Below, one piece after another: positions 115 to 34,738 of a DNA stretch of 37,985 bases. Source of the DNA: Candidatus Contendobacter odensis Run_B_J11 (lineage in GTDB: Bacteria > Pseudomonadota > Gammaproteobacteria > Competibacterales > Competibacteraceae); assembly GCF_000531125.1 (NCBI RefSeq), contig NZ_CBTK010000079.1, positions 1-37,985 of the forward strand, given 5' to 3'. The notes under the pieces are model-generated. The model saw only the letters and a list, made by a program, of their open reading frames with translations. It did not search any database and was not told where the DNA came from. The stretch's first letter is position 1. Each line of letters opens with the position of its first letter. The position numbers were made by a program, and so were the translations under genes.

Positions 115-251
115 TAGGTTTTGTATTTTTCAGGTCAAAAACAGCTTAGTTCGTCATACCCGCGAAAGCGGGTATCCAGTTTTTCAGCGGCTTACTGGAT
201 TCCCGCATTCGCGGGAATGACGGAAACGGGAACCCTGAATGCGAAAACCTA
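115..251. repeat. Degenerate copy of the CAGGACTTTCGCT-type inverted-repeat element
   Basis: The core at 152-222 is a double hairpin bounded by CGTCAT and ATGACG: ATACCCGC/GCGGGTAT and ATTCCCGC/GCGGGAAT, a layout like the neisserial dRS3 repeat. Worn terminal inverted repeats, TAGGTTTTG at 115 and GCGAAAACCTA ending at 251, flank it. The right end supplies the TAG stop codon of the methyltransferase gene. Better-preserved copies lie at 12350-12463, 17325-17439 and 33582-33696. The stretch 1-114 holds nothing I recognise. Confidence 0.6.
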
Positions 252-1091
252 CTGAGAATTGGTATAACTTGGCACTGTATCTGTCCATGCCCATAAATCC
301 CAATGTCCGACCTGCAAACGCGATTGCCCGCATTCAATCCAGCGGCGACGCTGAATCTGCCAATTCGCCAATTCACTCGCCGCTTCGGGCGCAATTTCCA
401 GCGCCGCATTAACCCAACCCTCCAATAGCGCCGTTTGCAACATTGCCTGTTCCGGCCCCAACTGCCACCGACTGGGCCGCACCATAACTTTGTAGTCCTG
501 GTTTCGCAGCAAGGTCGCCAGCGCCGCTACCGCATCGGAACCGAGCGCCGGGCCAAAACCCTTGTCGGTGCGCTGATGGCGATTGACCCACTGGCGCAAT
601 ACTTCATCACCCGCCAGCGCCGGTTGCCAAATGATTTCACCGTCGTAGCTCAGCGCGATAAAAAGCGCCGCCCGCCATTGCCCGCAACAGTGCGCCAACC
701 GTTCCAGCCAGTCCGCTGACACCAAATCGAGCAAAGCGGACGCTGTAACCAGTTGCACCTCTTGAAAATCCAGCCGCTCCCAGTCGCGGACTAAATCCAA
801 AAGCAGCCATTCCAAATCGCAATGACCGGTTGCATTGGCCCATGGCTGCATTTCCAACTGACTCCGCGCCAACAGCGCCGGATCATAATCCACCAGTCGC
901 CAATGCTGTTCACCGCCGAGCAACGGGGCCAGAAAGCGGCAATTCGCCCCGGTTCCACTGGCCAAATCCAGCACCGTCAACGAACTTTGCCGCTGCCGCC
1001 AATCCAGCAAGCGGGCCATGAGTTCCAGGTTGCGGGCAGTGGTATCCGCCGGTTCGCGTAGCGACAGCCATTCCGCCGAAAAACCGCTCAT
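249..1091 (-). CDS. Class I SAM-dependent methyltransferase
   Basis: The protein (280 residues from the chosen start) has the class I methyltransferase SAM-binding motif I, VLDLASGTGANCRFL, at about residues 40-54, followed by an acidic motif II, LVDYDPALL. The acceptor cannot be read from sequence. An upstream ATG at 1142 would overlap the glycosyltransferase by 55 bases. The ATG at 1091 makes an ATGA overlap with the glycosyltransferase stop, so 1091 is preferred and translational coupling is likely. It is the last gene of a minus-strand run of dehydrogenase, PTPS-like protein, glycosyltransferase and methyltransferase, which suggests it methylates the product of those enzymes or a related metabolite. 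The stop codon lies inside the end of an inverted-repeat element. The family call is firm, the role unknown. Confidence 0.85.
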   Translation of the reverse strand: MSGFSAEWLSLREPADTTARNLELMARLLDWRQRQSSLTVLDLASGTGANCRFLAPLLGGEQHWRLVDYDPALLARSQLEMQPWANATGHCDLEWLLLDLVRDWERLDFQEVQLVTASALLDLVSADWLERLAHCCGQWRAALFIALSYDGEIIWQPALAGDEVLRQWVNRHQRTDKGFGPALGSDAVAALATLLRNQDYKVMVRPSRWQLGPEQAMLQTALLEGWVNAALEIAPEAASELANWQIQRRRWIECGQSRLQVGHWDLWAWTDTVPSYTNSQ

Positions 1092-2137
1092 GCCGGGATC
1101 ACCGCAAGCGCCGTTGCAAAATAAGCACACGTCGTCGGCCAATCCGGCAAGGTTTGCCGCGCCACCCGCGCCCCCGCCGCCAAACGCTGGCGTAATTCAG
1201 GATCAGTCATTACCCGCAACAAAGCTTCGGCCAGCGCCGCCTCGTCGCCGGGCGAAATCAGCAACCCGGCATCCGCCGGCACGGTGTCGGGAATTGCACC
1301 CGCTGTAGTGCTGATGATAGGTAAACCGTGCGCCAGCGCCTCGGCCAGCGCCATGCCATAGCCTTCGTGATACGACGGCAGCACAAATATATCGGCCCGC
1401 CGGTATTCGTGCGCCAACGCCGCTTCGTCCAGTTGACCCAAAAATTCGATACGCGCTGACAATCCCAACGCCTCAGCCAAAATTGACAGTTCAGCGGCGG
1501 TGACCGGATCAAGATCGGTGCTGCCCGCACAGCGCAAGCGCCAAGGCTGATCCTTAATCCGCGCCAGCGCCCGGAACAACACGGCGTGACCCTTGCGCGG
1601 CGTCAGCGAGGCGACGCACAGCAGCGCCAATTCAGCGCTGCCCGAACCTTCCGCCAGCGGCGCGGGATCGGTACCAGGCACGACAACAACGCACTGCTCT
1701 GGCGAAATACCATAATCGGCCAGCGCCCGCACGGTGCTGGGACTGGTAACAATCACACTGCGGGCGTGGCATAACGCCTCGCGTTCGCTAACGTACAACT
1801 GCTGACGCAATCCCGCCGTCAAGCCGGTTTCCAGCGCCAGCGGATGATGAACCAGCGCCACCAGCCGCAACCGGTTGCGATGATTGGCAGCAACGGCAGG
1901 CATCGCGCCCAGCGCCAGTCCGTCAATCACCACTAAAGCCTGCCCTGGCAATGCCGCCAATACTGCATCGGCTTGATCCAGTGCAGCGGCATCCGGCATT
2001 GGAAAGGCGTGACTCAAGCGATGCAGTTCAACCCGCCAGCCCAGCGCCGCAAGTCCGGTCATGATGCGACGGTCGTAGCGATAGCCACCGGTACGAGTCT
2101 CAGGATCGCCGGGTATCAGGAAATGAACTGCATTCAA
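1088..2137 (-). CDS. Glycosyltransferase family 4 (GT-B fold)
   Basis: This 349-residue protein has GT4 hallmarks: an N-terminal acceptor domain opening with VHFLIPGDPETRTGGYRYDR, the donor-domain strand LLCVASLTPRKGHAVL, and the EX7E motif in HEGYGMALAEALAHGLP, followed by STTAGAIPD. Such enzymes transfer a sugar from a nucleotide sugar with retention of configuration. Donor and acceptor are unknown. The first codon is TTG at 2137, and TTGA overlaps the TGA stop of the PTPS-like gene. The next in-frame ATG (about residue 26) would remove the glycine-rich first loop, so TTG is preferred and coupling expected. No membrane segment or signal peptide is visible, so it probably acts in the cytoplasm or at the inner membrane face. 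Confidence 0.87.
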   Translation of the reverse strand: MNAVHFLIPGDPETRTGGYRYDRRIMTGLAALGWRVELHRLSHAFPMPDAAALDQADAVLAALPGQALVVIDGLALGAMPAVAANHRNRLRLVALVHHPLALETGLTAGLRQQLYVSEREALCHARSVIVTSPSTVRALADYGISPEQCVVVVPGTDPAPLAEGSGSAELALLCVASLTPRKGHAVLFRALARIKDQPWRLRCAGSTDLDPVTAAELSILAEALGLSARIEFLGQLDEAALAHEYRRADIFVLPSYHEGYGMALAEALAHGLPIISTTAGAIPDTVPADAGLLISPGDEAALAEALLRVMTDPELRQRLAAGARVARQTLPDWPTTCAYFATALAVIPA

Positions 2138-2535
2138 GGCAGCGGTCCTTCATAGGCGGCCCAGGCCACATGAGATTCATGCAGGGTCACGCGCATAGCG
2201 GTCAGGTCGGTGGCGTGAACGCCCAACTGGCCGTCTTCGATCCGAATAGCGATACGGTTGAAAATGGCCTGCGCCAGAAACTCAGTAGTAGTATTGCGGC
2301 CCGCGAACTCCGGTAACTCGTCGAGGTTGCGGTAATTCCATTCTTCTAGCACGGTGCGTAGACAATCGCTGGCTTTGCCGATATCCACGACGACGCCATC
2401 GGGGTCCAGATCGGGGCGGCGCAACTCCAGGTCAACGACATAAGTAGCGCCATGTGGGCGCTGGGCAGGGCCGAAAGTTTCCCCTCTAAAGCTGTGGGCG
2501 ATCATGAAATGGTCACGGACGCAAACGGTGTACAT
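2134..2535 (-). CDS. 6-pyruvoyl-tetrahydropterin synthase/QueD-fold protein with altered active site
   Basis: The 133-residue protein matches the PTPS/6-carboxytetrahydropterin synthase family in length and order: an N-terminal strand with MIAHSF (zinc-ligand His14), an HG-x-x-Y element (HGATY, His28), the central WNYRNLDEL...TTTEFLAQ segment, and the C-terminal HESHVAWAAYEG with its conserved Glu. Several usual catalytic positions differ. The Cys four residues before the HGH motif is Ala24, the second His of HGH is Ala30, and the Asp-His before the central loop is Asn-Tyr. A canonical QueD or PTPS reaction is therefore doubtful. It may handle a different pterin-like substrate or have lost catalysis. 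It sits between a dehydrogenase (57-base gap) and a glycosyltransferase (overlap). Confidence 0.8.
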   Translation of the reverse strand: MYTVCVRDHFMIAHSFRGETFGPAQRPHGATYVVDLELRRPDLDPDGVVVDIGKASDCLRTVLEEWNYRNLDELPEFAGRNTTTEFLAQAIFNRIAIRIEDGQLGVHATDLTAMRVTLHESHVAWAAYEGPLP

Positions 2536-2592
2536 GGTGAGACCTTGGGTTGATTGCTTGGAAAACTTAGGCTGATTCCGAACGATTCCGGT

Positions 2593-3585
2593 TCAGTCAA
2601 CGGCAGGATAAGCGATGCGATGGCACAACGTACCACCCGGATTTTGGCTCAATTCGGCCATCTTCTGCGGTAGATCGGCAAACGAACTCTCGCCGCTGAT
2701 CAGCGTATCCAACACCGGATCGTCCAGTAAATCCATCACCGTCGCCATGCGCCGCCGATAATCCCAGCGGCTACGCTGTGCAGTGGCAATGCTACCGACT
2801 TGAGAGCTACGGAGGGTGAGCCGCTGGCTATGGAACGCTTCACCGAGCGGCAGGCTGACCGGTTGGGTGCCGAACCAACTTACTTCCAGCACCGTCGCCT
2901 CGAACCCGGCCAGACGCAGCGCCGTCACTAGCCCGGCGGGCGATCCGCTAGTGTGAATCACCAAATCCTGTTCCGGTTGCGCCTGCTCCGGTGTGGTAAA
3001 GCGGACACCGATCCGGTTGGCGACAGACTCCTTGCCGGGGTCTACATCCACCAGTTGTACCACGCAACCCGGCAACCGGTTAACTAATCGGGCGATGAGG
3101 CAACCGACCACGCCCGCGCCGATGACCGTGATTCGATCTCCCAAACGCGGCGCAGCGTCCCATAAAGTGTTCAGCGCCGTTTCCAGATTGGCGGCCAGCA
3201 CCGCTCGACCGGGCGGAATATGCGCCGGGATCAGCGTCAGCGCCGTGGCTGGAACCACATAGCGATCCTGATGCGGAAATAGGCAAAACACCACTCGACC
3301 ACGCCATTCGGCGGGGCCAAGTTCGACCATACCGACATTGCAATAACCATATTTGACCGGCGCGGGAAAATCGCCTTGCTGGAACGGGGCGCGCATCGCC
3401 TGATGCTGGCTGGGCGGCACTTCGCCACGAAATACCCGGCTCTCGGTGCCACGACTGATGCCGGTATACAGGGTTTGGATTTGCACTTCGTCCGGGCCGG
3501 GCGGATTCAGAGTTTCAGCGCGAATCTCGCCTTGGCCGGGAGTCACCAGCCAGAAGGCTCGTGCGTACATCGAATTACCGGTCAT
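2593..3585 (-). CDS. Zinc-type alcohol dehydrogenase-like (MDR family) oxidoreductase
   Basis: From the ATG at 3585 the protein has 330 residues. It shows an N-terminal GroES-like domain and a Rossmann NAD(P) site, ITVIGAGVVGCL (glycines 156-161), followed by the acidic strand end LVDVDPGK. At the position where zinc-dependent MDR enzymes usually carry a catalytic Cys it reads GISRGTES (residues 42-49), so catalytic zinc may be absent or bound differently. A longer frame begins at 3648 but overlaps the divergent gene at 3624. The 3585 ATG has GGGGAG eight bases upstream and is preferred. It leads the minus-strand run with the PTPS-like, GT4 and methyltransferase genes. Only 38 bases separate it from the divergent phosphatidyltransferase gene, so promoters for both must be packed or overlapping. 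Confidence 0.83.
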   Translation of the reverse strand: MTGNSMYARAFWLVTPGQGEIRAETLNPPGPDEVQIQTLYTGISRGTESRVFRGEVPPSQHQAMRAPFQQGDFPAPVKYGYCNVGMVELGPAEWRGRVVFCLFPHQDRYVVPATALTLIPAHIPPGRAVLAANLETALNTLWDAAPRLGDRITVIGAGVVGCLIARLVNRLPGCVVQLVDVDPGKESVANRIGVRFTTPEQAQPEQDLVIHTSGSPAGLVTALRLAGFEATVLEVSWFGTQPVSLPLGEAFHSQRLTLRSSQVGSIATAQRSRWDYRRRMATVMDLLDDPVLDTLISGESSFADLPQKMAELSQNPGGTLCHRIAYPAVD

Positions 3586-3623
3586 ACTTTCTCCCCTGAC
3601 CATCGCCAGAAACGGCAAGTGTA

Positions 3624-4373
3624 ATGAATCGTTCCACTGCATTCCCATTTCAGCCGCTACTAATCAGCACCTTATTGACCGTAGTACCGGCGATCCTGCT
3701 GCTGGCGAGCGCGGCGAGCGCGATTGCCGCACGGTTTCAATTACCCGCCAGTTATATCATTCAAAGCATCGCTGTTTTGATCGGACTGCTGCTCACCCTG
3801 CTGCCCTTTTTACCGCAACATCAGCCGCTACAGCGACTCGGCGCGGCCAATACCGTAACGCTGCTACGCGCCGGCATTGCCGCATTGCTGGCAGGTTTAA
3901 TCGGCCAGGCGATGTTAGTAGCCAGCTTAGCCTGGTTGATGGCTGCACTCGCCGGCATCGCCCTGCTGCTCGATGGGGTTGATGGCTGGCTGGCGCGGCG
4001 CAGCCAGATGCAAAGCATATTCGGCGCTCGGTTCGACATGGAAGTAGACGCTTTTTTTATTCTGGTTCTGGCGGCATTGGTCTATCAGATGGACAAGGCC
4101 GGGGTTTGGGTCTTGCTATCGGGGGCGATGCGCTATGGTTTTGTCGCCTTGGGTTACGCCCTGCCCTGGTTGCGCCAGCCGCTGCCGCCGCGCCAGCGCC
4201 GCCAAACCGTGTGCGTATTCCAGACCGCCATTCTGGCGCTGTGTCTAATTCCGCCGCTGCTTCCACCGTGGACAACGCGGTTGACCGCTGTCGCGTTGGG
4301 GCTGCTAACCCTCTCATTTTTGGTGGATACCGTTTGGCTGGCTCGTTGCCGCATCAGCGGCATGAGTCGCTGA
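3624..4373 (+). CDS. CDP-alcohol phosphatidyltransferase family membrane enzyme
   Basis: This 249-residue integral membrane protein carries the complete CDP-alcohol phosphotransferase signature D-x2-D-G-x2-A-R-x8-G-x3-D-x3-D, seen as DGVDGWLARR and GARFDMEVD (Asp117, Asp120, Asp138, Asp142). At least six hydrophobic segments are visible. The family moves a phosphatidyl or phospho-alcohol group from a CDP-activated donor to an alcohol, with two metal ions at the four aspartates. The true pgsA lies at 21997, so this paralogue probably makes a different phospholipid or a non-lipid phosphodiester. It diverges from the dehydrogenase gene, and its last 60 bases overlap the 3' end of the sulfatase-fold gene on the other strand. 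The acceptor alcohol is unknown. Confidence 0.85.
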   Translation: MNRSTAFPFQPLLISTLLTVVPAILLLASAASAIAARFQLPASYIIQSIAVLIGLLLTLLPFLPQHQPLQRLGAANTVTLLRAGIAALLAGLIGQAMLVASLAWLMAALAGIALLLDGVDGWLARRSQMQSIFGARFDMEVDAFFILVLAALVYQMDKAGVWVLLSGAMRYGFVALGYALPWLRQPLPPRQRRQTVCVFQTAILALCLIPPLLPPWTTRLTAVALGLLTLSFLVDTVWLARCRISGMSR

Positions 4374-5960
4374 CGGGCGGTCCAACGTCCGCAACAGCAA
4401 CGGTCCTAGCTCTTCAATCCCGCCCAGCGCCGTCGAACCCGGGGTTATGCCCACCTGAAATCCTGCCGCCTGAAATGCGCTAATGATGGCCGGATCGCGT
4501 GAGAACACATGCACCGGCACCTGCCAGGAAATATCGCGTCCGCCGACAATCGCAGGCGGCTGGTGATCACCGAGTACCAGTAACAGCGCGTTGGCAGGGG
4601 CGTGCTGGCGCAGATAGCCGCCTAGCACTGCAAGGTTGTAACGGATGCTACGGACATAGGCCGCTGCCAGTTCCTCACCATCCAGCCGCCCGCTCAGTTC
4701 CACCGCGCCTGACGACAGCGTTGCATCGGATACGGCGGCAACATGGCTCCAATCCGGGTGATAGGGCGGCAAGGGCGCAAACGGAGCATGACTGTTGATG
4801 GTCGGGAAAAACACCAGCAACGGTGATCGCCCGGTCGGAGTGACTTCAGTCTGATGCAGCCGGTACAGGCTGTATTGATCGGGAATCACCCACCCGCCAT
4901 AAGCCGGACCGTGATACTCCAGGCGTTCAGCGTCGACAATCCGATCAAAGCGGTAGAACTGTCCTTCCGGCCAGGCATAACGCAGACCGGGCATCAGCGC
5001 CACTGTGCGATAACCGGCAGCGGCAAAACGGCTGACCAGCGTAGCGCGGTTACTGGTCAACAAGTCGTGGTAATCATCCTGATCGGCAATGCGCAGGCCG
5101 GACAGCAGGCTGGAATGGGCCAACCAGGACGAGCCACCAAAGGTGCTGGATTCGACCCGCGCTGAGGCGATCTGCCAACCTGCGGCCAGCAGTGACCGTT
5201 CCAGTGTCGCAAAATCGTCAGCCAGCGGAATCGCGAAGCGGGGATCGTCGAATACCAGCGCTCCCTGTGACTCGAAAAAAATCACCCACACGTCGCCTTT
5301 ACCCAAGCGGCTCAAATCCGAAACCGGCAGCGGCGGTTGCCCGGCGATTCGACCATGATCCCTGAACACGGTCGCAGCCAGCACCCTCTTCACTTGCTCG
5401 GCCAACATGGCAGTAACCGGCAACGCGAAGCCGTGTCCAACCGGCAGGCGCGGAATCAGCCAACCGGCACCGTAGGGCACCAGCAGGATCAAAGCCAGGA
5501 CGCCGAGCGCACGACGGACAGGAGTATGGTCAAGCGCCTCGATGACGGTGCTGAGCGCCCAGCGCAGAACCAAAACCAGCGCAGTGAGCAGCGCCAGCAG
5601 CGCCAACCCGCCGAGCAACACCTGCCAGCCCGCGACTTGATCCAGAAACAGGGCCGCTACTTGCGGCAGATGCGGGCTGTCCCAGTACAGATTAATGGAT
5701 CGCCCCATCAGGGCCGGCGCGGTGACATCCAGATAGCGCCCCAGCGTCAGGATGACGTAGCCGACCAAAACGGCGCAACGCAACCGGCGACCCGGCGCAC
5801 CCCGCCAAGCCGCGATCAATACCAGCACCAGCAGCAACAGCGCCAGTTCAATGGACAGTTCGGGAACCCAGCGCACCCCGACCGTGGGCCAGCGGTTCTG
5901 GAAGGTCAAGGCCGAGTTGAGGATGAACAGTGCGAGTAGCAGTTGGGACAAGTGGAGCAT
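4314..5960 (-). CDS. LTA synthase/sulfatase-fold membrane phosphotransferase or hydrolase
   Basis: About 550 residues with an N-terminal block of four to five hydrophobic segments (roughly residues 1-190) and a C-terminal alkaline-phosphatase-superfamily domain. Seen in that domain are VWVIFFESQGAL (metal-ligand Glu), the candidate nucleophile stretch STFGGSSWLAHSSLLSG, FFPTINSHAPF, and the metal-binding LVLGDHQPPAIV. The architecture is that of lipoteichoic-acid-synthase-like and phosphoethanolamine-transferase-like enzymes, which use phospholipid head groups outside the inner membrane. The start is uncertain: ATG at 5960, or an in-frame TTG at 5969; neither has a clear ribosome site. It converges on the CDP-alcohol phosphatidyltransferase gene with a 60-base 3' overlap. 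A role in transferring or cleaving the head group made by that enzyme is inference. Confidence 0.8.
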   Translation of the reverse strand: MLHLSQLLLALFILNSALTFQNRWPTVGVRWVPELSIELALLLLVLVLIAAWRGAPGRRLRCAVLVGYVILTLGRYLDVTAPALMGRSINLYWDSPHLPQVAALFLDQVAGWQVLLGGLALLALLTALVLVLRWALSTVIEALDHTPVRRALGVLALILLVPYGAGWLIPRLPVGHGFALPVTAMLAEQVKRVLAATVFRDHGRIAGQPPLPVSDLSRLGKGDVWVIFFESQGALVFDDPRFAIPLADDFATLERSLLAAGWQIASARVESSTFGGSSWLAHSSLLSGLRIADQDDYHDLLTSNRATLVSRFAAAGYRTVALMPGLRYAWPEGQFYRFDRIVDAERLEYHGPAYGGWVIPDQYSLYRLHQTEVTPTGRSPLLVFFPTINSHAPFAPLPPYHPDWSHVAAVSDATLSSGAVELSGRLDGEELAAAYVRSIRYNLAVLGGYLRQHAPANALLLVLGDHQPPAIVGGRDISWQVPVHVFSRDPAIISAFQAAGFQVGITPGSTALGGIEELGPLLLRTLDRPSATHAADAATSQPNGIHQK

Positions 5961-6149: not shown

Positions 6150-6554
6150 ATGAGCAGCGTGGATGAGAAACAGGAGGTAATGATCGCGGGTGAAGTTCCG
6201 CGCACTGCTGAACAGCCTAGCGAAGAAATGCGACGCTGCCTCGATGAAGTGGCGACCGTGCTTGGCAAATACGACATCGGGGTTACCCTCTGTCTGGCCA
6301 ATGACCGGGAATCGGTGCTGCTCTATCGGCTACCCGACTGGTGCGCAGTGGTTTTGAACGACGGCGAGCCGGAAGTCAACCCGGAACGGCTCTGGCAGAC
6401 CGATGATCTGGAACAACTCATGTTCCGTACCTACCGCTTAACCAGCGCTTTGCACCAGGTTCACGAACGGATGCACGATGAATCGGCGCAACTGGAAACC
6501 TTCGTCAAGGATTTGGGCCGACATCTGCTGGATCCCAATCGCAAGTGCCATTAG
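6150..6554 (+). CDS. Small acidic protein of unknown function
   Basis: This 134-residue protein has a strong ribosome site, AGGAGG, nine bases before the ATG. I do not recognise a family. It is acidic and apparently cytoplasmic, with no signal peptide or membrane segment. The N-terminal 20 residues look disordered. A middle region reads VGVTLC-like strand, VLLYRLPDW and CAVVLNDG, as in a small alpha/beta or roadblock-like fold (a guess). The C-terminal third (ERLWQTDDLEQLMFRTYRL and on) looks helical, with an amphipathic pattern through ALHQVHERMHDES. It starts 189 bases from the divergent sulfatase-fold gene and converges on the Sel1 gene with a palindrome between them. Codon use and the ribosome site support a real gene. 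Confidence 0.75.
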   Translation: MSSVDEKQEVMIAGEVPRTAEQPSEEMRRCLDEVATVLGKYDIGVTLCLANDRESVLLYRLPDWCAVVLNDGEPEVNPERLWQTDDLEQLMFRTYRLTSALHQVHERMHDESAQLETFVKDLGRHLLDPNRKCH

Positions 6555-8915: not shown

Positions 8916-9518
8916 ATGGCCATCAATCTGCAAAAAGGACAGCGCATCAGCCTGGAAAAAGAGGCCGGGCGCGGCCTGAGCCGGGTCGTCATGGGTCTGG
9001 GCTGGGGCATGAAGCAAGTGCAGTCCAAGGGTTTTCTGGGCTTCGGCGCGGGTACTCGCCAGGAAGCGGTGGATCTCGACGCCTCCTGTCTGCTGTTCGA
9101 CGCCGGTGGCAATCCGGTGGATACCGTCTGGTTTCGACAACTGCAAAGTCGCTGCGGCTCTATTCATCACAGCGGTGATGATCGCTCCGGCGGTGGCGAG
9201 GCCGGTTCCGAGAACGAGCGTATCACTATTGAACTGAATCAGGTGCCCGCTACGGTGCAGACTCTGATTTTCACCGTCAACAGCTTCAGCGGCGAAGGTT
9301 TCGCCGGCATTCCCAGCGCCTTCAGCCGGCTGACGGACGGCGCTAACGGCAACGAGGTCGCTCGCTTCGACCTGTCGCTGGAGGGCGGTAATTACACCGG
9401 ACTGATTATGACCAAGCTCTATCGTCATAACAGTGAGTGGAAGCTGCAAGCCATCGGTGAACACGCCAGCGGCCGCACCTTCCACGACCTGCTACCGGCG
9501 CTCCGGCCCTATTTGTAG
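8916..9518 (+). CDS. terZ: TerD-family protein, TerZ-like
   Basis: This 200-residue protein begins with the TerD-family signature MAINLQKGQRISLEKE and continues with MGLGW, DLDASCLLFDA (residues 53-63) and GDDRSGGGEAGSENE (87-101), the acidic loops that bind calcium in TerD. The wording VWFRQLQS and LIFTVNSFSG is the TerZ subtype. TerD-family proteins are cytoplasmic calcium-binding scaffolds linked to tellurite resistance, colicin tolerance and phage inhibition. GAGGA lies six bases before the ATG. It is the first gene of a same-strand ter cluster, divergent from the Sel1 gene. In this copy the second acidic loop reads GSENE where TerD has GDDE. Confidence 0.85.
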   Translation: MAINLQKGQRISLEKEAGRGLSRVVMGLGWGMKQVQSKGFLGFGAGTRQEAVDLDASCLLFDAGGNPVDTVWFRQLQSRCGSIHHSGDDRSGGGEAGSENERITIELNQVPATVQTLIFTVNSFSGEGFAGIPSAFSRLTDGANGNEVARFDLSLEGGNYTGLIMTKLYRHNSEWKLQAIGEHASGRTFHDLLPALRPYL

Positions 9519-9537
9519 ACCGGTCGAGGATGGAATT

Positions 9538-10770
9538 ATGGATCTGCAACCCGGCCAGAATATCGCTATCACCCGACACAGCCCGCCACCGACTGCCGTC
9601 GAAATCACCCTCGCCTGGGAACCCGTGACCACGCCGCTGGCGATTGATTCCAGCGCCTTCGCCCTGAGCGCTCAGGGCAAGGTGCGCGGCGATGGCGATT
9701 TCATTTTTTACAACCAGTTAGCGCTGGCCGGCGGCGGTCTCCAGCGCGCCAGCGACGGTCGAAGCTTCACCATCACCTTCGCCCAGCTTCCTGCGAGCAT
9801 TGAGCGAATTGTTATAGCCCTGACCATTGACCAGGGCCAGCGGCGTGGGCAATCGTTCGGCCAGTTAAGCCAGGTGCGGGCGGAAATCCGCGAGGCCGGC
9901 AGCAAGGCGACGCTGGCGACTTTCCCGTTAGCGACCAAGATGATGCCGGAAACCGCGCTGATCGTTGGCGAGCTATACCGCCGCAATAATGAATGGAAGT
10001 TTCGCGCCGTCGGTCAGGGCTTCGTCGGCGGGCTGGGGCCGCTGGCGCGGCAGTACGGGGTGGATGTCGCCGACGATCCCGATGTAGCCGAAGCCGCTCC
10101 ACCGCCGCATCCGACTGCCCCAGCGCCTACTTCCACTCCGCTACCGAGTTCACCCAAACCGATCCGGCTGGAAAAAATTACCCTGGACAAGAAGACGCCC
10201 AGTATTTCGCTGGAGAAAAAAGCGCAAGGATTCGGCGAAATCGTGGTCAATCTCAACTGGAATCAGGGCAGCGGCGGCAAGGGATTTTTTGGCCGACTGA
10301 CCAGCCGTAAGATCGATCTCGACCTGGGTTGCCTGTTCAAATTGAGCGATGGCCGACCTGGCGCAGTGCAGGCGCTGGGCGGCAACTTCGGCAGCCTGCA
10401 ACAACTGCCCTATATTCAGCTTATGGGCGATGATCGCAGCGGCGCCAGCGCGGCAGGCGAATTCCTGCATATCAACGGCCAGCAGTGGGGTCAGTTGGAC
10501 CGGGTGCTGGTGTTCGCCATGATTTACGAGGGCGCGCCCAACTGGGCGGAAACCGATGCCGTGGTGACTATCACCATTCCGGGTCAACCGACGCTGGAAC
10601 TCCGGGTGGACAGTCATCGCAACGATCAGCGAATGTGTGCGCTGGCGATGCTGGAAAACCAGAACGGCAATATCAAGGTCACAAAATTGGTCGAGTATTT
10701 CGCGGATCATCGCGTTCTTGACCAAGCCTACGGCTTTGGACTGCGTTGGGTCGCTGGTTCCAAAGACTAA
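9538..10770 (+). CDS. terA: TerA-like two-domain TerD-family protein
   Basis: From the ATG at 9538 (GAGG eight bases upstream, 19 bases after the terZ-like stop) the protein has 410 residues; the frame opens earlier at 9433 but that would overlap the previous gene. Residues 1-180 are a TerD-like domain (FIFYNQLAL, GQSFGQL, ALIVGELYRRNNEWKFRAVGQGF). A Pro-rich linker covers about 185-215. A second TerD-like domain follows (SISLEKKAQGFG, VNLNWNQGSG, KIDLDLGCLFKL, GDDRSG). The first domain lacks the usual DLDAS acidic pair (AIDSSAF) and the GDDE loop, so calcium binding there is doubtful; the second keeps more of it. The double-domain layout resembles TerA. It probably works with the other Ter proteins as a membrane-associated complex. 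Confidence 0.8.
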   Translation: MDLQPGQNIAITRHSPPPTAVEITLAWEPVTTPLAIDSSAFALSAQGKVRGDGDFIFYNQLALAGGGLQRASDGRSFTITFAQLPASIERIVIALTIDQGQRRGQSFGQLSQVRAEIREAGSKATLATFPLATKMMPETALIVGELYRRNNEWKFRAVGQGFVGGLGPLARQYGVDVADDPDVAEAAPPPHPTAPAPTSTPLPSSPKPIRLEKITLDKKTPSISLEKKAQGFGEIVVNLNWNQGSGGKGFFGRLTSRKIDLDLGCLFKLSDGRPGAVQALGGNFGSLQQLPYIQLMGDDRSGASAAGEFLHINGQQWGQLDRVLVFAMIYEGAPNWAETDAVVTITIPGQPTLELRVDSHRNDQRMCALAMLENQNGNIKVTKLVEYFADHRVLDQAYGFGLRWVAGSKD

Positions 10771-10807
10771 TTTTTCAACACGTTGCAATAACTAGAGGAA
10801 CACGCGC

Positions 10808-11263
10808 ATGGCTCTTGAATGGTTGAAACAGCGTTACAGTGAAGTCTCCGCCAGCCTGAAAACCGAAGTCACCAAGATTCGCAACAAGAGTTTCCTGGAA
10901 TCGGTAGTGGCGGGTTGCGCCCTGGTGGCTCACTCCGACGGGGTCGTTCGCCCGGAGGAAAAGCAGAAGATGATGGGGTTTCTGCGCAATTCCGAGGTGC
11001 TCTCCGTATTCAGCGTTGAAGAAGTGATCACGATCTTCGACAAATACGCCAAGCAGTTCGAGTTTGATCAGCAGATCGGTCAGGCCAGCGCCTTACAGGC
11101 CGTGGCCAAGCTCAAGGGTAACGAAGCCGAAGCCAAGCTGATGGTGCGGGTCTGCTGCGCGATTGGAGCTGCTGACGGCAATTTCGACGATGGCGAGAAG
11201 GCGGTGGTGCGCAAGATTTGCGCTGAGCTGAGCCTGAATCCTAAAGACTTCGATCTGGGCTGA
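10808..11263 (+). CDS. terB: Tellurite resistance TerB-family protein
   Basis: The 151-residue all-helical protein matches TerB. The paired acidic motifs HSDGVVRPEEK (near residue 42) and AADGNFDDGEK (near residue 121) correspond to the metal-binding halves of the TerB fold. AGAGGA lies about ten bases before the ATG. TerB is a cytoplasmic protein that associates with the membrane protein TerC; the terC gene begins 12 bases after this stop, consistent with co-transcription and a TerBC complex. Length is ordinary for the family. Confidence 0.9.
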   Translation: MALEWLKQRYSEVSASLKTEVTKIRNKSFLESVVAGCALVAHSDGVVRPEEKQKMMGFLRNSEVLSVFSVEEVITIFDKYAKQFEFDQQIGQASALQAVAKLKGNEAEAKLMVRVCCAIGAADGNFDDGEKAVVRKICAELSLNPKDFDLG

Positions 11264-11275
11264 GCACGGTCATCC

Positions 11276-12349
11276 ATGGAACAACATCTCGGCTTTCCAC
11301 TGGAAACCATCGCCATTTTTGTGGCGGTGGTCGCCTTTTCAGTCTGGCTGGACCTCAAGCTGCACAAGGACAGCAAGGACATCAGCATCCCCAATGCGGT
11401 GGCCTGGTCGCTATTCTGGATCGGCCTGTCCATCGCGTTCTTTTTTTACATCAAGATTCACCACGGCAACGAGTACGCCGATCTGTTCCTGGCCGGCTAC
11501 ATTCTGGAAAAGTCCCTGTCGGTGGACAACATGATGGTATTCGTCGCCATCTTCGCTTCCTTCGGCATCAAGGGCGCTCTGCAACACCGGATTCTGTACT
11601 TCGGCATTCTGGGCGCGGTGGTATTCCGGATGCTGTTCATCGCCTTCGGCACCAGTCTGTTTGGCTTGAGTACCTGGATCGAGTTTGTATTCGCCGCCAT
11701 CGTGGCCTGGACCGGCTACAAGATGTTGGCGGGCATCGGCGGAGATGACGAAATCGAGGATTATTCCGATCACTGGTCGGTGCGGTTAACCCAAAAATTG
11801 GTGCCGATCTTTCCTCGTCTGCATGGCGACCACTTCGTCGTCCATCACGGCCACGTCAAAACAGTAGTGGAGCAGGACTCCAGCGTGTCGGTCAGCCGGG
11901 AGGCGGTGGTGTATGCCACGCCGATGCTGTTGTGTCTGGTTTGCATCGAGGTGTCGGACATCATCTTTGCCTTCGACTCGGTGCCGGCAGTGATCGCGGT
12001 GACCCGCGAACCGCTGCTGGTCTATTCGTCGGTCATTTTCGCCATTCTCGGTCTCCGCTCGTTGTACTTCGTGCTGGCGGCGGCGCAGAAATACCTGGTG
12101 CATCTCGACAAGGCGGTGGCGGCGCTGTTGTTCTTCATCGCCTTCAAGCTGGCGCTCCAGGCGTCGAACCACCTGTTCCACTGGCCCGGATTCGAGATTT
12201 CTTCAAACCTGAGCCTGATGATCATTCTCGGCGTGCTGGCGGTGGGCGTGATCGCTTCGCTGCTGTTGCCGGAAAAGGAAGAGAATGAAGCGACCGATGG
12301 GGCCGCGCCGGAGAAGACCGACTCCAACTCCAGTGTGGGGAAGAGTTAA
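11276..12349 (+). CDS. terC: TerC-family integral membrane protein
   Basis: This 357-residue polytopic protein has seven to nine hydrophobic segments and the diagnostic intramembrane acidic motifs EKSLSVDNMMVF (Asp84) and CIEVSDIIFAFDSVPAV (Asp228, Asp234). TerC proteins sit in the inner membrane, and relatives have been linked to metal (manganese) handling and to the Ter stress complex. A charged, His-rich loop (residues 155-210) lies between the halves. The last 25 residues are hydrophilic. The gap to terB is 12 bases; no strong ribosome site precedes the ATG, so coupling to terB is possible. An inverted-repeat element begins one base after the TAA stop and separates terC from terD. Confidence 0.92.
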   Translation: MEQHLGFPLETIAIFVAVVAFSVWLDLKLHKDSKDISIPNAVAWSLFWIGLSIAFFFYIKIHHGNEYADLFLAGYILEKSLSVDNMMVFVAIFASFGIKGALQHRILYFGILGAVVFRMLFIAFGTSLFGLSTWIEFVFAAIVAWTGYKMLAGIGGDDEIEDYSDHWSVRLTQKLVPIFPRLHGDHFVVHHGHVKTVVEQDSSVSVSREAVVYATPMLLCLVCIEVSDIIFAFDSVPAVIAVTREPLLVYSSVIFAILGLRSLYFVLAAAQKYLVHLDKAVAALLFFIAFKLALQASNHLFHWPGFEISSNLSLMIILGVLAVGVIASLLLPEKEENEATDGAAPEKTDSNSSVGKS

Positions 12350-12463
12350 CAGGACTTTCGCTTTCCGTCATTCCCGCGTCAGCGGGAATCCAGTAACCCG
12401 CTGAAAAACTGGATACCCGTTTTCACGGGTATGACGACGCCAGGTTTATTAGCGAAGGTCCTG
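12350..12463. repeat. 114-bp inverted-repeat element between terC and terD
   Basis: Termini are CAGGACTTTCGCT at 12350 and AGCGAAGGTCCTG ending at 12463, a 13-bp inverted repeat with one mismatch. The core at 12366-12436 is the dRS3-like double hairpin (ATTCCCGC/GCGGGAAT and ATACCCG/CGGGTAT) in the orientation opposite to the copies at 152, 17352 and 33608. The element starts one base after the terC stop. The ATG at 12431 inside it opens a frame running into terD, but that is not the likely start. Confidence 0.85.
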
Positions 12464-12532
12464 GTTAATAAACCTTCCCAAGATTCCAGATTCTCAAATC
12501 ACCAAGTCCTTAACCAAGTGAGTAACAAGCTC

Positions 12533-13108
12533 ATGGCTATTTCCCTCAATAAAGGCGGTAAGCTGTCGCTTAGCAAGGAAGCGCCGGATCTCAAAAAAGT
12601 GTTGGTTGGGCTGGGCTGGGACGCCCGCGCCACTGATGGTGTGGATTTCGACCTGGACGCTTCAGCGTTCCTGCTGGGCGCGGGTGACAAGGCTCGCTCA
12701 GAAGCCGATTTCATCTTCTACAACCAGTTGAAATCCGCCTGTGGCTCGGTGCAGCACACCGGCGATAATCTCACCGGCGCCGGTGAAGGCGACGACGAAA
12801 CGATCATGGTGGATTTGAGCCGGGTGCCAGCGGAGGTGCAGAAGATCGCGGTCACCGTCACCATCCACGAAGCTGAGCAACGCCGACAGAATTTCGGCCA
12901 GGTGATGAACGCCTATATCCGGCTGGTCAACGCTGAAACCAATGTCGAGGTCGCCCGCTACGATCTGGCCGAGGATGCCTCGACCGAGACGGCGATGATT
13001 TTCGGCGAACTCTATCGCCATGGCGGCGAGTGGAAGTTCAGCGCGGTGGGTCAGGGCTACGCCGGTGGCTTGGCGGCGATGTGCCGCCAGTACGGCATCA
13101 ACATCTAG
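12533..13108 (+). CDS. terD: TerD-family calcium-binding stress protein
   Basis: The 191-residue protein begins [18 protein letters not shown], the normal TerD N-terminus. It carries the two acidic calcium sites intact: DLDASAFLL (residues 40-48) and [13 protein letters not shown] (77-89). The ending [22 protein letters not shown] is also typical. The open frame extends 34 codons upstream into the inverted-repeat element, but that extension has no family resemblance, so the ATG at 12533 is used. The ribosome site is weak. It is followed 21 bases later by a close paralogue, as terD and terE are in classical ter operons. Confidence 0.93.
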
Positions 13109-13129
13109 TTTTCCGAGGAGAATTGTGCA

Positions 13130-13708
13130 ATGGCTGTCTCTCTCCAAAAAGGTCAGAACGTCTCGCTGAGTAAAGCGGCGCCGGGGATGAAGAAGGTGCG
13201 CTTCGGTCTGGGCTGGGATGCCCGCGCCACCGACGGCGCTGCTTTCGATCTGGATGCATCGGCGTTCGTGCTGGACGCCAGCGGCAAGGTGCTGAGCGAT
13301 CAGCATTTCGTGTTCTATAACAACCCGCACGATCCCTCTGGCGCAATTGCGCACAAGGGCGATAACCGCACTGGGCAGGGTGGCGGCGACGATGAGGTGC
13401 TCGAAATTGACTTGGGCCTGATGACGCCCAATGCCGCCAAGGTGACCTTCGTAGTCACCATCCATGACGCCGAGGCGCGCAAGCAGAGTTTTGGCCAGGT
13501 CAGCAACGCCTACATCCGGGCGCTGAATGCCGAGGGCGAACTGGAACTCGCTCGCTATGATCTGTCTGAAGACGCCTCGATTGAGACGGCGATGATCTTC
13601 GGTGAACTGTACCGCAACAACGACGAGTGGAAGTTCAAGGCCATCGGCCAGGGTTATGCCGGCGGACTGGTGGCGGTCGCCCGCGATTACGGGGTTAGCC
13701 TCGGCTAA
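13130..13708 (+). CDS. TerD-family protein, TerE-like paralogue
   Basis: The 192-residue protein is clearly homologous to its upstream neighbour and has both calcium motifs: [11 protein letters not shown] (residues 40-50) and [13 protein letters not shown] (77-89). GAGGAG precedes the ATG. The tandem pair presumably arose by duplication and corresponds to TerD/TerE; which is which cannot be settled by eye. It is the last gene of the cluster, since a strong terminator follows 36 bases after the stop. The product should be cytoplasmic and act with TerB/TerC. Confidence 0.92.
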
Positions 13709-15220: not shown

Positions 15221-16063
15221 TTAGCGAACTGAACGTCTCCGCCGCCAGAACATCGCTGGCAGAGTCAAGCCCAGCAAGGCCCAAACTGGTGGTTCGTCCA
15301 CCGGAACATCATCCTCGACCGTGATCACGTCATTAGCGCAGTTCATGGTCCAGCTCACGTTCAATTCGTCGTTATTCTTTAACAAGGCTCCAAAAACCGA
15401 CTTCGCAACACTGACTTCGTAGATCCAGTGTTGGCCAGAACCCGCACCCATTTTTTCCGGCCCCTGCTGAATAGACATCGTGGCCTTTTCAGACATTGGA
15501 GTGAGTCCGCCCTTCAACGAAGTCACCGCCTGGGTGTGCCAAAACGGGTCTTTCAGCCAATCACCATTGGTTGTTTGATACACACCGGTTGTAAATAGGC
15601 CGATGTTGGCAGGGTTACCTCCGCTGAACTGATGTGGCGTTCGGATACCAACTTCATAATTGCTATCCGGGCTTGTGCCATTCCAGAAATTCAAAGCAAA
15701 ATCCCCTGCTGCGTAATCGCCTCCTGCTTGCTTGGTGTTCGGGTCATGGCCGGTCACCAAAGCGATATAAAGATTGGTGCTGTCCCAAGTCACATAGAGC
15801 GCCTCAGCGTCATAGGCTTGACCGCCATAACCTGGATCAACCCGGCCACCGTTGCCGCTGATGTAATCCTCAACGGTGTAATAGATATTGAGGCCGTTGT
15901 ATTGGTAAGTGCCCGCGCCCTGACCATTCACATTGCCTGAAGGCGTCCACTGGTTTGTCAACCCCCAATCACTCAAACCACCATCGACCGTGATCGCATT
16001 GGCCGCGCTATTCAGCCCTAATCCTGAGATTAGCGCTAAAGATAATGTCAGTAATTTTTTCAT
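15221..16063 (-). CDS. Secreted PEP-CTERM-like protein with CBM9/DOMON-like domain
   Basis: This 280-residue protein has a signal peptide (MKKLLTLSLALISGLG...ANA). A beta-rich body follows that opens ITVDGGLSDWGL and contains ALYVTWDSTNLYIAL, wording seen in CBM9-like and related sugar- or ligand-binding domains. The C-terminus, DEPPVWALLGLTLPAMFWRR followed by RRSVR, has the proline motif, hydrophobic stretch and arginine cluster of a PEP-CTERM sorting signal, though the motif reads EPP rather than PEP. Such proteins are cleaved by exosortase and released to the surface or matrix. No exosortase gene is in the window. The upstream region holds a sigma-54-type site at 16165-16181. A good terminator follows the gene. 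Confidence 0.8.
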   Translation of the reverse strand: MKKLLTLSLALISGLGLNSAANAITVDGGLSDWGLTNQWTPSGNVNGQGAGTYQYNGLNIYYTVEDYISGNGGRVDPGYGGQAYDAEALYVTWDSTNLYIALVTGHDPNTKQAGGDYAAGDFALNFWNGTSPDSNYEVGIRTPHQFSGGNPANIGLFTTGVYQTTNGDWLKDPFWHTQAVTSLKGGLTPMSEKATMSIQQGPEKMGAGSGQHWIYEVSVAKSVFGALLKNNDELNVSWTMNCANDVITVEDDVPVDEPPVWALLGLTLPAMFWRRRRSVR

Positions 16064-21996: not shown

Positions 21997-22566
21997 ATGA
22001 TGCAACTGAACCTGCCCACGGTGTTGACCCTGCTGCGCATCGCACTGATCCCGGTGTTCGTGGGGGTGTTCTTCCTGCCGTTCCCCGGCGCCAATCTGTT
22101 TTGCACTGCGCTGTTCGGACTAGCGGCGCTCACCGACTGGCTGGACGGCTATCTGGCGCGGCGGCTCGGGCAGACCTCGGCCTTCGGCGCATTTCTGGAT
22201 CCCGTCGCCGATAAACTGATGGTCGCTGCCGCGTTGGTATTGCTGGTGCAGGCGATTTCTACTCCATTGATGGCGGCGGCGGCGGTGGTCATCATCGGCC
22301 GTGAAATTGCCATTTCGGCACTGCGCGAGTGGATGGCGCACATCGGCGATCACGGACGGGTGGCGGTATCCAGTGTGGGCAAGTTCAAAACGACCGCCCA
22401 GATGGCTGCGGTGTTGCTACTGTTGTACCGCGAACCGATTGGGGCATTTCCAACCCTGGAAGTCGGGATGGGCTTGCTGCTGATTGCCGTAGCGCTGACC
22501 CTGTGGTCCATGCTGCATTACCTGTTGGCAGCATGGCCGGTACTCCGGGGTGTCAAAAAGGGTTGA
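21997..22566 (+). CDS. pgsA: CDP-diacylglycerol--glycerol-3-phosphate 3-phosphatidyltransferase
   Basis: This 189-residue inner-membrane enzyme makes phosphatidylglycerophosphate, the committed step to phosphatidylglycerol and cardiolipin. It has the CDP-alcohol phosphotransferase signature, DWLDGYLARR and GAFLDPVADK (Asp47, Asp50, Asp68, Asp72), and about five hydrophobic segments. The opening NLPTVLTLLRI is typical of PgsA. It lies 11 bases after uvrC and just before the tRNA genes, the conserved gammaproteobacterial order. The paralogue at 3624 shares only the signature. Confidence 0.96.
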   Translation: MMQLNLPTVLTLLRIALIPVFVGVFFLPFPGANLFCTALFGLAALTDWLDGYLARRLGQTSAFGAFLDPVADKLMVAAALVLLVQAISTPLMAAAAVVIIGREIAISALREWMAHIGDHGRVAVSSVGKFKTTAQMAAVLLLLYREPIGAFPTLEVGMGLLLIAVALTLWSMLHYLLAAWPVLRGVKKG

Positions 22567-34046: not shown

Positions 34047-34738
34047 ATGATTTTTACCCCCCCCATTGTAACAAAAATGTAGCGGATTTTGGTCGCTGTT
34101 CGGTTTTCGCCGCCGCGTTGGCGGCTTTTTTGTGGGCCGGCCCCACGCCCGCCCACGCCACCACGCTCCAATTCAGCCTCAATACCGCTGCTCTGAACGG
34201 CACAGCGGCGAGTTTGGCCTTCGATTTCATCGGCAACGATGGCCTGGCGGGCAACAATACCGTCGTCGTCAGCAATTTTTACACTAGCGGAACGCTCGGA
34301 AATAACAGCTTCTCTGGCGGTATTGCCGTGACCCATCCCAGCCCGCCCGGCCCGTTCCCCGTCACCCTGACCGATAGCGGTTTCTTCAACGAATTCCTGC
34401 AAGAACTCACCTTGGGCGACACGGTGAGCTTCACCCTGAACCTGACCGAGCAGCTTGCATCGTCGGGATCGTCAACTCCAGATTCGTTCTCCTTTTTCCT
34501 GCTGGACGCTTCGCTGTTACCGCTGTTTGCTACCAGCGATCCGCTCGGCGCGGATGCGCTGTTTGCAGTGGACATCAACGGTACGCCCAGCGGCACTCGT
34601 TACCTCTTCAATTACGCCGGTACCGGTGGCACGCCCGTCACCTGGACGCTGGAGCCGGTGGCGGTGCCGCTACCCTCCACCGCGCTGTTAGTCGGTGTGG
34701 GCCTCCTCGGCTGGGTTGCCGGGCGGCGACGAGGGTGA
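34047..34738 (+). CDS. PEP-CTERM sorting-domain protein with apparent frameshift at a C8 run
   Basis: The mature region reads continuously from 34118 to 34738 and ends in the sorting signal VPLPSTALLVGVGLLGWVAG plus RRRG: a VPxPx motif, a membrane helix and arginines, cleaved by exosortase. The best start is the ATG at 34047, with GAGG six bases upstream and a sigma-54 promoter 46 bases before it, but that frame ends at a TAG at 34080. One extra C in the C8 run at 34057-34064 joins both parts into a normal signal peptide (MIFTPPHCNKN... FAAALAAFLWAGPTPAHA). So the gene is broken, phase-variable, or carries a sequencing error. If a TTG at 34118 were used instead, the signal peptide would be unusually short. 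The body is a beta-rich surface domain I cannot assign. Confidence 0.78.

Follow-up and report, generated by a model that had tools for sequence, protein, structure and literature searches.

The left 6 kb of a 37,985-nucleotide stretch of Candidatus Contendobacter odensis Run_B_J11 (NZ_CBTK010000079.1; the whole stretch is hereafter called the window) carries six predicted genes whose families recur together far beyond chance. They encode a class I S-adenosylmethionine-dependent methyltransferase (MT; 249..1091, minus strand), a GT4 glycosyltransferase (1088..2137, minus), a PTPS-IV subfamily protein with an FGPAQ motif (2134..2535, minus), a BchC-like medium-chain dehydrogenase (MDR; 2593..3585, minus), a CDP-alcohol phosphotransferase (CDP-OH-P; 3624..4373, plus) and a membrane-anchored, LtaS/EptA-like protein of the alkaline-phosphatase superfamily (4314..5960, minus), here called the sulfatase-fold protein. 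The initial annotation of this DNA had read the six as a single pathway; the families do form one set, but six is an incomplete list, as at least five more belong to it, namely GTP cyclohydrolase II (GCHII), RibD_C, a creatininase family, LPG_synthase_TM and FkbM. These extra members point to a precursor in the GTP/riboflavin branch, and in two genomes a gene fusion wires GCHII and RibD_C to the MDR-PTPS pair. The reading that we favour, with moderate confidence, is that the families form a dedicated module leading from GTP to a pterin-type, glycosylated, methylated and probably lipid-linked molecule. If so, a pathway linking nucleotide and riboflavin chemistry to the cell envelope would be common to very many bacterial species, and since no product is known, the set points to an undiscovered cell molecule.

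Recurrence of the gene set

Relatives were collected by a scan of named genomes, one genome per species, with an eight-row PTPS alignment; at least 583 relatives were found among 594 matched stretches, two patterns being used so that a gene may count twice. The best 80 of these at least 583 relatives make up the locus set, in which up to 10 kb on either side was searched with family profiles and 41 taxon groups were assigned by hand from record titles. Because the stretches differ in length, absence counts in the 80 loci are upper bounds; in L086, L093 and L110, for example, the sulfatase-fold gene is some 9 kb away from the block, adjoining OpgG. The loci include Halomonas/Vreelandella, Variovorax, Xenophilus, Thiorhodococcus, Micromonospora, Actinoplanes, Actinomadura and Streptomyces, as well as Acidobacteria and metagenome-assembled genomes of Gemmatimonadetes and Nannocystaceae. 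In the family, relative and pairwise searches and in one of the alignments the MDR query had three extra residues before its start, and in the family searches the MT query had two.

MDR and PTPS are present in all 80 loci, GT4 in 78, MT in 75, CDP-OH-P in 61 and the sulfatase-fold gene in 25, and the further families are represented by RibD_C (65 loci), LPG_synthase_TM (44), GCHII (RibA; 38), creatininase (31) and FkbM (21). MDR-PTPS-GT4-MT form a single same-strand block in 74 loci, and in 52 the next module gene is CDP-OH-P, divergent from MDR. All six families first noted accompany the block in 23 of the 80 loci and occur together in 13 of the 41 taxon groups, so that the co-occurrence beyond chance on which the initial annotation had staked its pathway is borne out. 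Treating exactly these six as the unit proved too strict, given how often the sulfatase-fold gene and CDP-OH-P are not near. Outside the module families only OpgG (13 loci) and OpgH (12) exceed eight loci; another five neighbours recur in at least five of the 80, none of them in more than eight. Cytochrome b561 was considered as a core part and rejected, being present in one of the 80 loci plus L031 and L034.

Genome-wide counts agree with this picture. In the class set of 369 genomes, the window's own included, PTPS-IV (at least 138 bits) is strong in 17 genomes and MDR (at least 260 bits) in 21; all 17 have both (Fisher 7e-26), side by side in 16 cases. Four genomes have MDR without PTPS-IV: another kind of PTPS adjoins MDR in G047, G284 and G218, and G210, whose MDR lies on a 7.9-kb contig, shows no PTPS match. 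The relatives set, 59 genomes that are not independent of each other, consists of the window's genome plus 58 of its relatives (MDR at least 400 bits, PTPS-IV at least 200 bits, a 67.5-bit PTPS-IV fragment in G001 being left out). Here all 23 MDR genomes have PTPS-IV, which is found in 25, and 24 genomes share PTPS-IV and the module RibD_C (26 genomes; Fisher 3.6e-13); exceptions to this pairing are G002 (PTPS only) and G035 (RibD_C only), both 75% complete, and G019 (RibD_C only), which is 100% complete. Moreover, the six main families travel together as judged by their pairwise distances, which give Pearson correlations of 0.67-0.88 and Spearman correlations of 0.43-0.69, against no more than 0.13 when labels were permuted 200 times for each pair.

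The module also reaches small genomes and plasmids. Three gammaproteobacterial genomes of 1.0-1.1 Mb, 94-99% complete (L154-L156; G178, G290 and G385), hold seven module genes together (CDP-OH-P, MDR, PTPS-IV, GT4, MT, a flippase-like gene and RibD_C), which suggests that the module is not a dispensable luxury there. In the six of 22 plasmid records that were examined, MDR always adjoins PTPS, surrounded variously by RibD-family proteins, RibA, creatininase, flippase-like proteins and CDP-OH-P. In viral contigs the PTPS pattern search had 10 matches, none of which was a relative.

One module or two

In eight genomes of the window genome's family (G004, G005, G007, G011, G018, G025, G029 and G036) PTPS and the MDR-CDP-OH-P pair lie on different contigs. 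MDR, PTPS and RibD_C are all retained in these genomes, with no PTPS in the stretch beside MDR; the sulfatase-fold gene accompanies MDR-CDP-OH-P in seven of the eight, and PTPS-GT4-MT are found in each of the four PTPS regions examined (L171, L172, L173 and L193). Such splits are what one might expect if two adjoining modules were present, one (MDR-PTPS-GT4-MT) making a soluble glycosylated, methylated pterin akin to the biopterin glucosides of cyanobacteria and the other, an envelope module of CDP-OH-P, the flippase-like and LtaS-like proteins and OpgG/OpgH, making something else. The four-gene block (74 of 80 loci) is also tighter than the association with CDP-OH-P (61) or the sulfatase-fold gene (25), and L035 has MDR-PTPS-MT-RibD without GT4 or CDP-OH-P. 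However, in the same eight genomes MDR is found beside CDP-OH-P and apart from PTPS, an arrangement that links CDP-OH-P with the genes on the pterin side; CDP-OH-P accompanies the module into Actinobacteria and Acidobacteria; and the distance correlation between MDR and CDP-OH-P is 0.88. We consider the division into two modules rather unlikely.

A probable precursor from the GTP/riboflavin branch

The strongest clue to the substrate comes from two distant gammaproteobacterial genomes, in which single-chain GCHII-RibD_C fusions of 447 and 433 aa (L157, 11069-12412; L158, 7503-8804) sit directly upstream of MDR-PTPS. This arrangement suggests that the substrate chain starts with GTP and runs via the first riboflavin intermediates, and a precursor from the GTP/riboflavin branch is thus likely. 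The GCHII identity is supported by PF00925 scores of 218 bits (L032) and 154 bits (L034), and the Cys triad, conserved zinc ligands, is present in 40 of 40 module proteins aligned, as judged against a reference sequence. The RibD_C protein of the window's genome (L040) scores 131.3 bits with PF01872; with TIGR01508 it scores 97.8 bits, and that of L031 108.5 bits, below the equivalog cut-off of 186, and by score the module RibD_C is a separate subfamily. No deaminase domain was found in the four RibD_C proteins scanned (L031, L040, L157 and L158), and no lumazine or riboflavin synthase was noticed by eye among the neighbours recurring in at least five of the 80 loci.

The creatininase-family member may complete the cyclohydrolase step in some lineages. 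A precedent is the BrbF formamidase, which completes the cyclohydrolase reaction as archaeal ArfB does and was initially annotated as a creatininase (PMC9478397). The Streptomyces module protein belongs to this superfamily (PF02633, 218 bits), falls far under the cut-off of the ArfB model (37 against 180 bits) and is also under that of the MftE model (141 against 172 bits). In addition, GCHII residue 105, reportedly changed from Tyr to Met in SCO6655, is not Tyr in six of the 40 module proteins, and a creatininase is found in all six of these loci versus 20 of the 34 with Tyr (p = 0.07). This tracking, which might reflect formamidase coupling, is suggestive only.

A different use of GTP-derived chemistry would be to provide normal pterins or folate in genomes lacking GTP cyclohydrolase I. 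FolE (PF01227) is absent from 15 of the 21 MDR genomes, the window's included, but FolE or FolE2 (PF02649) is present in 20 of the 21, only G293 having neither, and FolE2 also occurs in six of seven same-family genomes without PTPS-IV. Such a role, which in addition would leave the sugar, methyl and lipid enzymes unexplained, is very unlikely. FolE replacement was dropped as a candidate function, since FolE2 covers all but one of the genomes lacking FolE.

The PTPS-IV protein

The window protein (133 aa; PF01242, 3.3e-25) carries the FGPAQ signature that is invariant in the eight-row PTPS alignment, the window included; variants among relatives are FGSAQ in L058 and FGPAK in L154. A full-length PTPS-IV homologue of known structure is PDB 3d7j (SCO6650; 3.8e-46, profile 224 bits), deposited as an 'uncharacterized protein', and the module gives both the subfamily and this structure a function hypothesis. 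The Pfam version searched here assigns PF00925 to GTP cyclohydrolase II and PF02649 to GCHY-1, which we take to be FolE2. The AGeNNT work of 2017, which named PTPS-IV as a COG0720 subfamily with the FGPAQ signature, reports in its PTPS-IV section PF00925 and PF01872 near a cluster of 561 sequences, mostly FGPAQ, and names PF00925 GTP cyclohydrolase I/FolE2 (PMC5445326). Because PF00925 is GTP cyclohydrolase II and not FolE2, the published PTPS-IV neighbourhood reads differently. This neighbourhood, GCHII and RibD_C nearby, is found in relatives and not within the window itself.

One may argue that the gene is simply an ordinary queuosine QueD gene that lies beside unrelated genes by chance. 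All six plasmid records examined label their PTPS '6-carboxytetrahydropterin synthase', five of them with a queuosine Gene Ontology term. Yet the QueD motif CxxxHGH is absent (AQRPHGA in the window), TIGR03367 gives 44.1 bits against a cut-off of 89.25, the window's genome has PTPS paralogues elsewhere (contigs C24 and C33), and the co-occurrence is beyond chance. The QueD reading is refuted as far as sequence goes, leaving it an extremely small probability, and a role in the proposed module would correct the current label on PTPS-IV genes. On contig C33 (4037-5068) a single open frame of 378 aa shows three tandem PTPS-domain matches.

Membrane-side proteins

The CDP-OH-P protein (249 aa; PF01066, 3.6e-11) has an intact motif DGxxAR(x8)GxxxDxxxD at residues 120-142, whose columns are invariant in a 23-row alignment of the window with 22 of the 61 loci that have the gene (the row of L139, which was out of frame, being left out). 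Its predicted model (predicted local distance difference test, pLDDT, 92.5) matches phosphatidylglycerol phosphate (PGP) synthase, PgsA, with Z 15.4, root mean square deviation (rmsd) 2.8 and 168 aligned residues, and phosphatidylinositol phosphate (PIP) synthase with Z 11.7, rmsd 4.0 and 166 aligned residues; with helical models Z can commonly reach about 13, and only PgsA is clear of that range. Matches to designed or helical-repeat structures (Z at most 7.6) were not used. PGP and PIP synthases attach a phosphorylated polyol to CDP-diacylglycerol; if the predicted fold is a guide, a phosphorylated polyol acceptor might be compatible with a ribityl- or neopterin-type phosphate. The best solved relatives by sequence profile alone are choline phosphotransferases, a weak match (31 bits). 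A separate pgsA-type gene was noticed by eye at 21997-22566 of the window.

The sulfatase-fold protein (548 aa) matches PF00884 with 3.4e-6, at 27 bits against a cut-off of 25. Its model (pLDDT 86.9) shows N-terminal membrane helices and an alkaline-phosphatase-superfamily domain, with Z 18.6-20.4 to LtaS, LtaP and GacH and 17.1-18.7 to the EptA/MCR group; full-length EptA (5fgn) aligns over residues 8-533 with Z 17.2, rmsd 7.0 and 422 aligned residues. Residues E233, S281, D468 and H469 are invariant in 20 rows, the window and 19 of the 25 loci with the gene, and are only consistent with phosphoglycerol or phosphoethanolamine transfer. A PDB profile search with this alignment gave no match at E 0.01. 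The predicted CDP-alcohol and LtaS-like folds are in keeping with the phospho-head-group chemistry initially assigned to the two proteins, and the glycosylated, methylated phosphodiester lipid then put forward as product remains putative.

Periplasmic glucan (OPG) genes provide a side clue on the envelope side. OpgG/OpgH lie near the module in 15 of the 80 loci, 13 of these being Halomonas-type or L119, and OPG genes also occur in Methylosinus (L033), the window's genome (L040), G006 (L174) and G399 (L164). The window's genome carries RibD_C and FkbM as a pair outside the window, on contig C319, with a neighbouring MdoG-family (periplasmic glucan) gene (L040, 7934-9514) that is convergent with RibD_C and 21 bases from its stop; an OpgG-type gene likewise adjoins RibD_C in G006. 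An OPG gene is absent from 17 of 18 same-family RibD_C loci examined (L174-L191, two of them short). These neighbours could mean that the pterin-side genes supply a cofactor or regulator for the modification of a glycosylated phospholipid or glucan, rather than a structural part of the product. The OpgG/OpgH loci and the MdoG-family gene beside RibD_C would fit such a role, but no OPG gene lies in the stretch in 65 of the 80 loci, the positive loci are concentrated in the Halomonas-type loci and L119, and no obvious pterin-using enzyme was seen, by eye, among neighbours in at least five loci. We regard this explanation as doubtful.

A proposed route from GTP to the envelope

For the dedicated module that we favour, we infer all substrates and products, the order of steps, the ring chemistry and the lipid linkage. 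In the first step GCHII would open GTP, helped in some lineages by the creatininase-family amidohydrolase acting as formamidase, and the stand-alone RibD_C would reduce the ribosyl chain to give a phosphorylated diamino-ribitylamino-pyrimidinone; in the window's genome, which holds one GCHII, this step would be carried out by that single enzyme and the dedicated RibD_C from another contig. The BchC-like MDR and the degenerate PTPS-IV would then make a pterin-type aglycone, to which GT4 would add sugar and which the methyltransferases MT and FkbM would cap. The PgsA-like CDP-alcohol transferase would join the phospho-polyol group to phospholipid. Finally, the LPG_synthase_TM protein, where present, would act as flippase, and the LtaS/EptA-like protein would transfer the head group on the outer side, the recipients in some proteobacteria perhaps being periplasmic glucans.

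A more detailed version, in which GTP cyclohydrolase I is bypassed, is offered tentatively and is somewhat improbable as a whole. GCHII and RibD_C would yield diamino-ribitylamino-pyrimidinone phosphate, MDR would oxidise the C2' hydroxyl of the ribityl chain, and the 5-amino group would close onto the resulting ketone to give a 6-substituted dihydropterin phosphate resembling dihydroneopterin phosphate. PTPS-IV would tailor this compound, which would be glycosylated and methylated, its phosphate serving as the point of phospholipid attachment. The result would be a membrane-anchored pterin, a new class of molecule, in bacteria from Actinobacteria to 1-Mb gammaproteobacteria.

MDR (330 aa) has no Pfam match at 1e-3 and scores 47 bits with the BchC model TIGR01202, below its cut-off of 291, so that BchC-like similarity is distant; its profile matches MDR alcohol and polyol dehydrogenases. 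The methyltransferase match of MT is weak (PF13649, 24.8 bits, under the cut-off of 27).

Several observations weigh against the proposed route. We know of no product or enzyme assay. In classical PTPS three histidines bind zinc and an Asp-His pair is catalytic; PTPS-IV departs from this, the window protein, compared with PDB 2g64 and 3i2b, having HGA in place of HGH, so that one of the zinc histidines is lost, and NY in place of the DH pair. E120 is invariant in the eight aligned rows, and the divergent PTPS of L061, L157 and L158 retain an HxH zinc motif. In one weak alignment MDR has Ser at the alcohol dehydrogenase Cys, and MDR may therefore not be a zinc enzyme. GCHII is missing from 42 of the 80 loci and creatininase from 49. 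No CDP-OH-P lies in the stretch in 19 and no sulfatase-fold gene in 55, and the lipid part might therefore be dispensable or a thing apart. True sulfatases also match the sulfatase-fold model with Z 16.4-17.5, not far under LtaS. The distance correlations partly reflect shared ancestry, and G019, which is 100% complete, has RibD_C and FkbM without PTPS-IV or MDR. A 2016 review (Zallot), in its passage on PTPS-IV, ties the subfamily to F420 synthesis on the basis of unpublished work (PMC5041015), a role that the module as found does not obviously fit. Furthermore, the window genome's one creatininase, on contig C311, may belong to another system; it is 35-38% identical to seven module proteins, of which the Streptomyces member is itself about 30-38% identical to the other six. 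The gene after it resembles, by eye, a mycofactocin gene, and the C311 protein was not counted as a module part.

Relation to known systems

To our knowledge, no known pathway joins these enzymes. Neither the whole gene set nor a pterin-bearing lipid was found described in the full-text literature searched, most subscription papers being outside its scope. The initial annotation's statement that no pathway is assigned to the set agrees with this search, but it needs qualifying, as the PTPS is a published subfamily with two published neighbours: AGeNNT PTPS-IV has the same signature as the window protein, with PF00925 and PF01872 as neighbours as in the module (PMC5445326). The text of that PTPS-IV section names no glycosyltransferase, methyltransferase, CDP-alcohol transferase, flippase, formamidase or sulfatase-fold partner. 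The riboflavin branch shares with the module the GCHII and RibD_C families and, in BrbF, a creatininase-family protein (PMC9478397). The module differs from it in the lack of a deaminase domain (four RibD_C proteins scanned) and in RibD_C scores below the NCBIfam cut-offs (two scanned).

Tetrahydrobiopterin and biopterin-glycoside pathways use FolE, PTPS, sepiapterin reductase and a glycosyltransferase. A PTPS-fold enzyme, an oxidoreductase and a glycosyltransferase are thus common to the module, whereas the module has GCHII for FolE, a PTPS without the catalytic pair, an MDR rather than a short-chain dehydrogenase, and extra lipid-type enzymes. PgsA and PIP synthase share the predicted fold and the CDP-OH-P motif with the window protein, but at 8-15% identity, and the N-terminal helices of the latter (residues 9-66) fall outside the alignments. 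Similarly, LtaS, GacH and the EptA/MCR group have N-terminal helices and an alkaline-phosphatase-type domain in common with the sulfatase-fold protein, a likeness known here from the model, at 10-14% identity. All of the enzyme families are known; what would be new is the type of pathway that joins them.

Layout of the window and neighbouring features

A re-check of open reading frames (ORFs) finds all six predicted ORFs intact and at the positions first described. MT (280 aa, ATG start), GT4 (349 aa, TTG start; PF00534, 3.3e-34), PTPS-IV and MDR run on the minus strand, as initially described; the 4-base overlaps attributed to this run hold at the MT/GT4 and GT4/PTPS junctions, but 57 bases separate PTPS from MDR. 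CDP-OH-P is divergent from MDR across 38 bases (3586..3623) and convergent with the sulfatase-fold gene, their 3' ends sharing 60 bases, both orientations being confirmed. A small ORF divergent from the sulfatase-fold gene (6150..6554, plus strand, 134 aa, no Pfam or NCBIfam family at 1e-3) is kept beside that gene in four relatives (L043, L053, L058 and L062) and is a doubtful member of the module. The window is the entire contig C79 of a 4.6-Mb, 319-contig genome, and the left end of MT is 248 bases from the contig edge; hence the cluster may be truncated on this side. Near this edge, at 150-235, inspection by eye shows an inverted-repeat element (cccgcgaaagcggg ... cccgcattcgcggg) that is possibly an assembly-breaking repeat.

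Elsewhere in the window a series of tellurite/stress genes resembling TerD and TerC, together with an ORF resembling TerB (8916-13708), was noticed by eye, as were two proteins with PEP-CTERM-like C-terminal tails (15221-16063 and 34118-34738).

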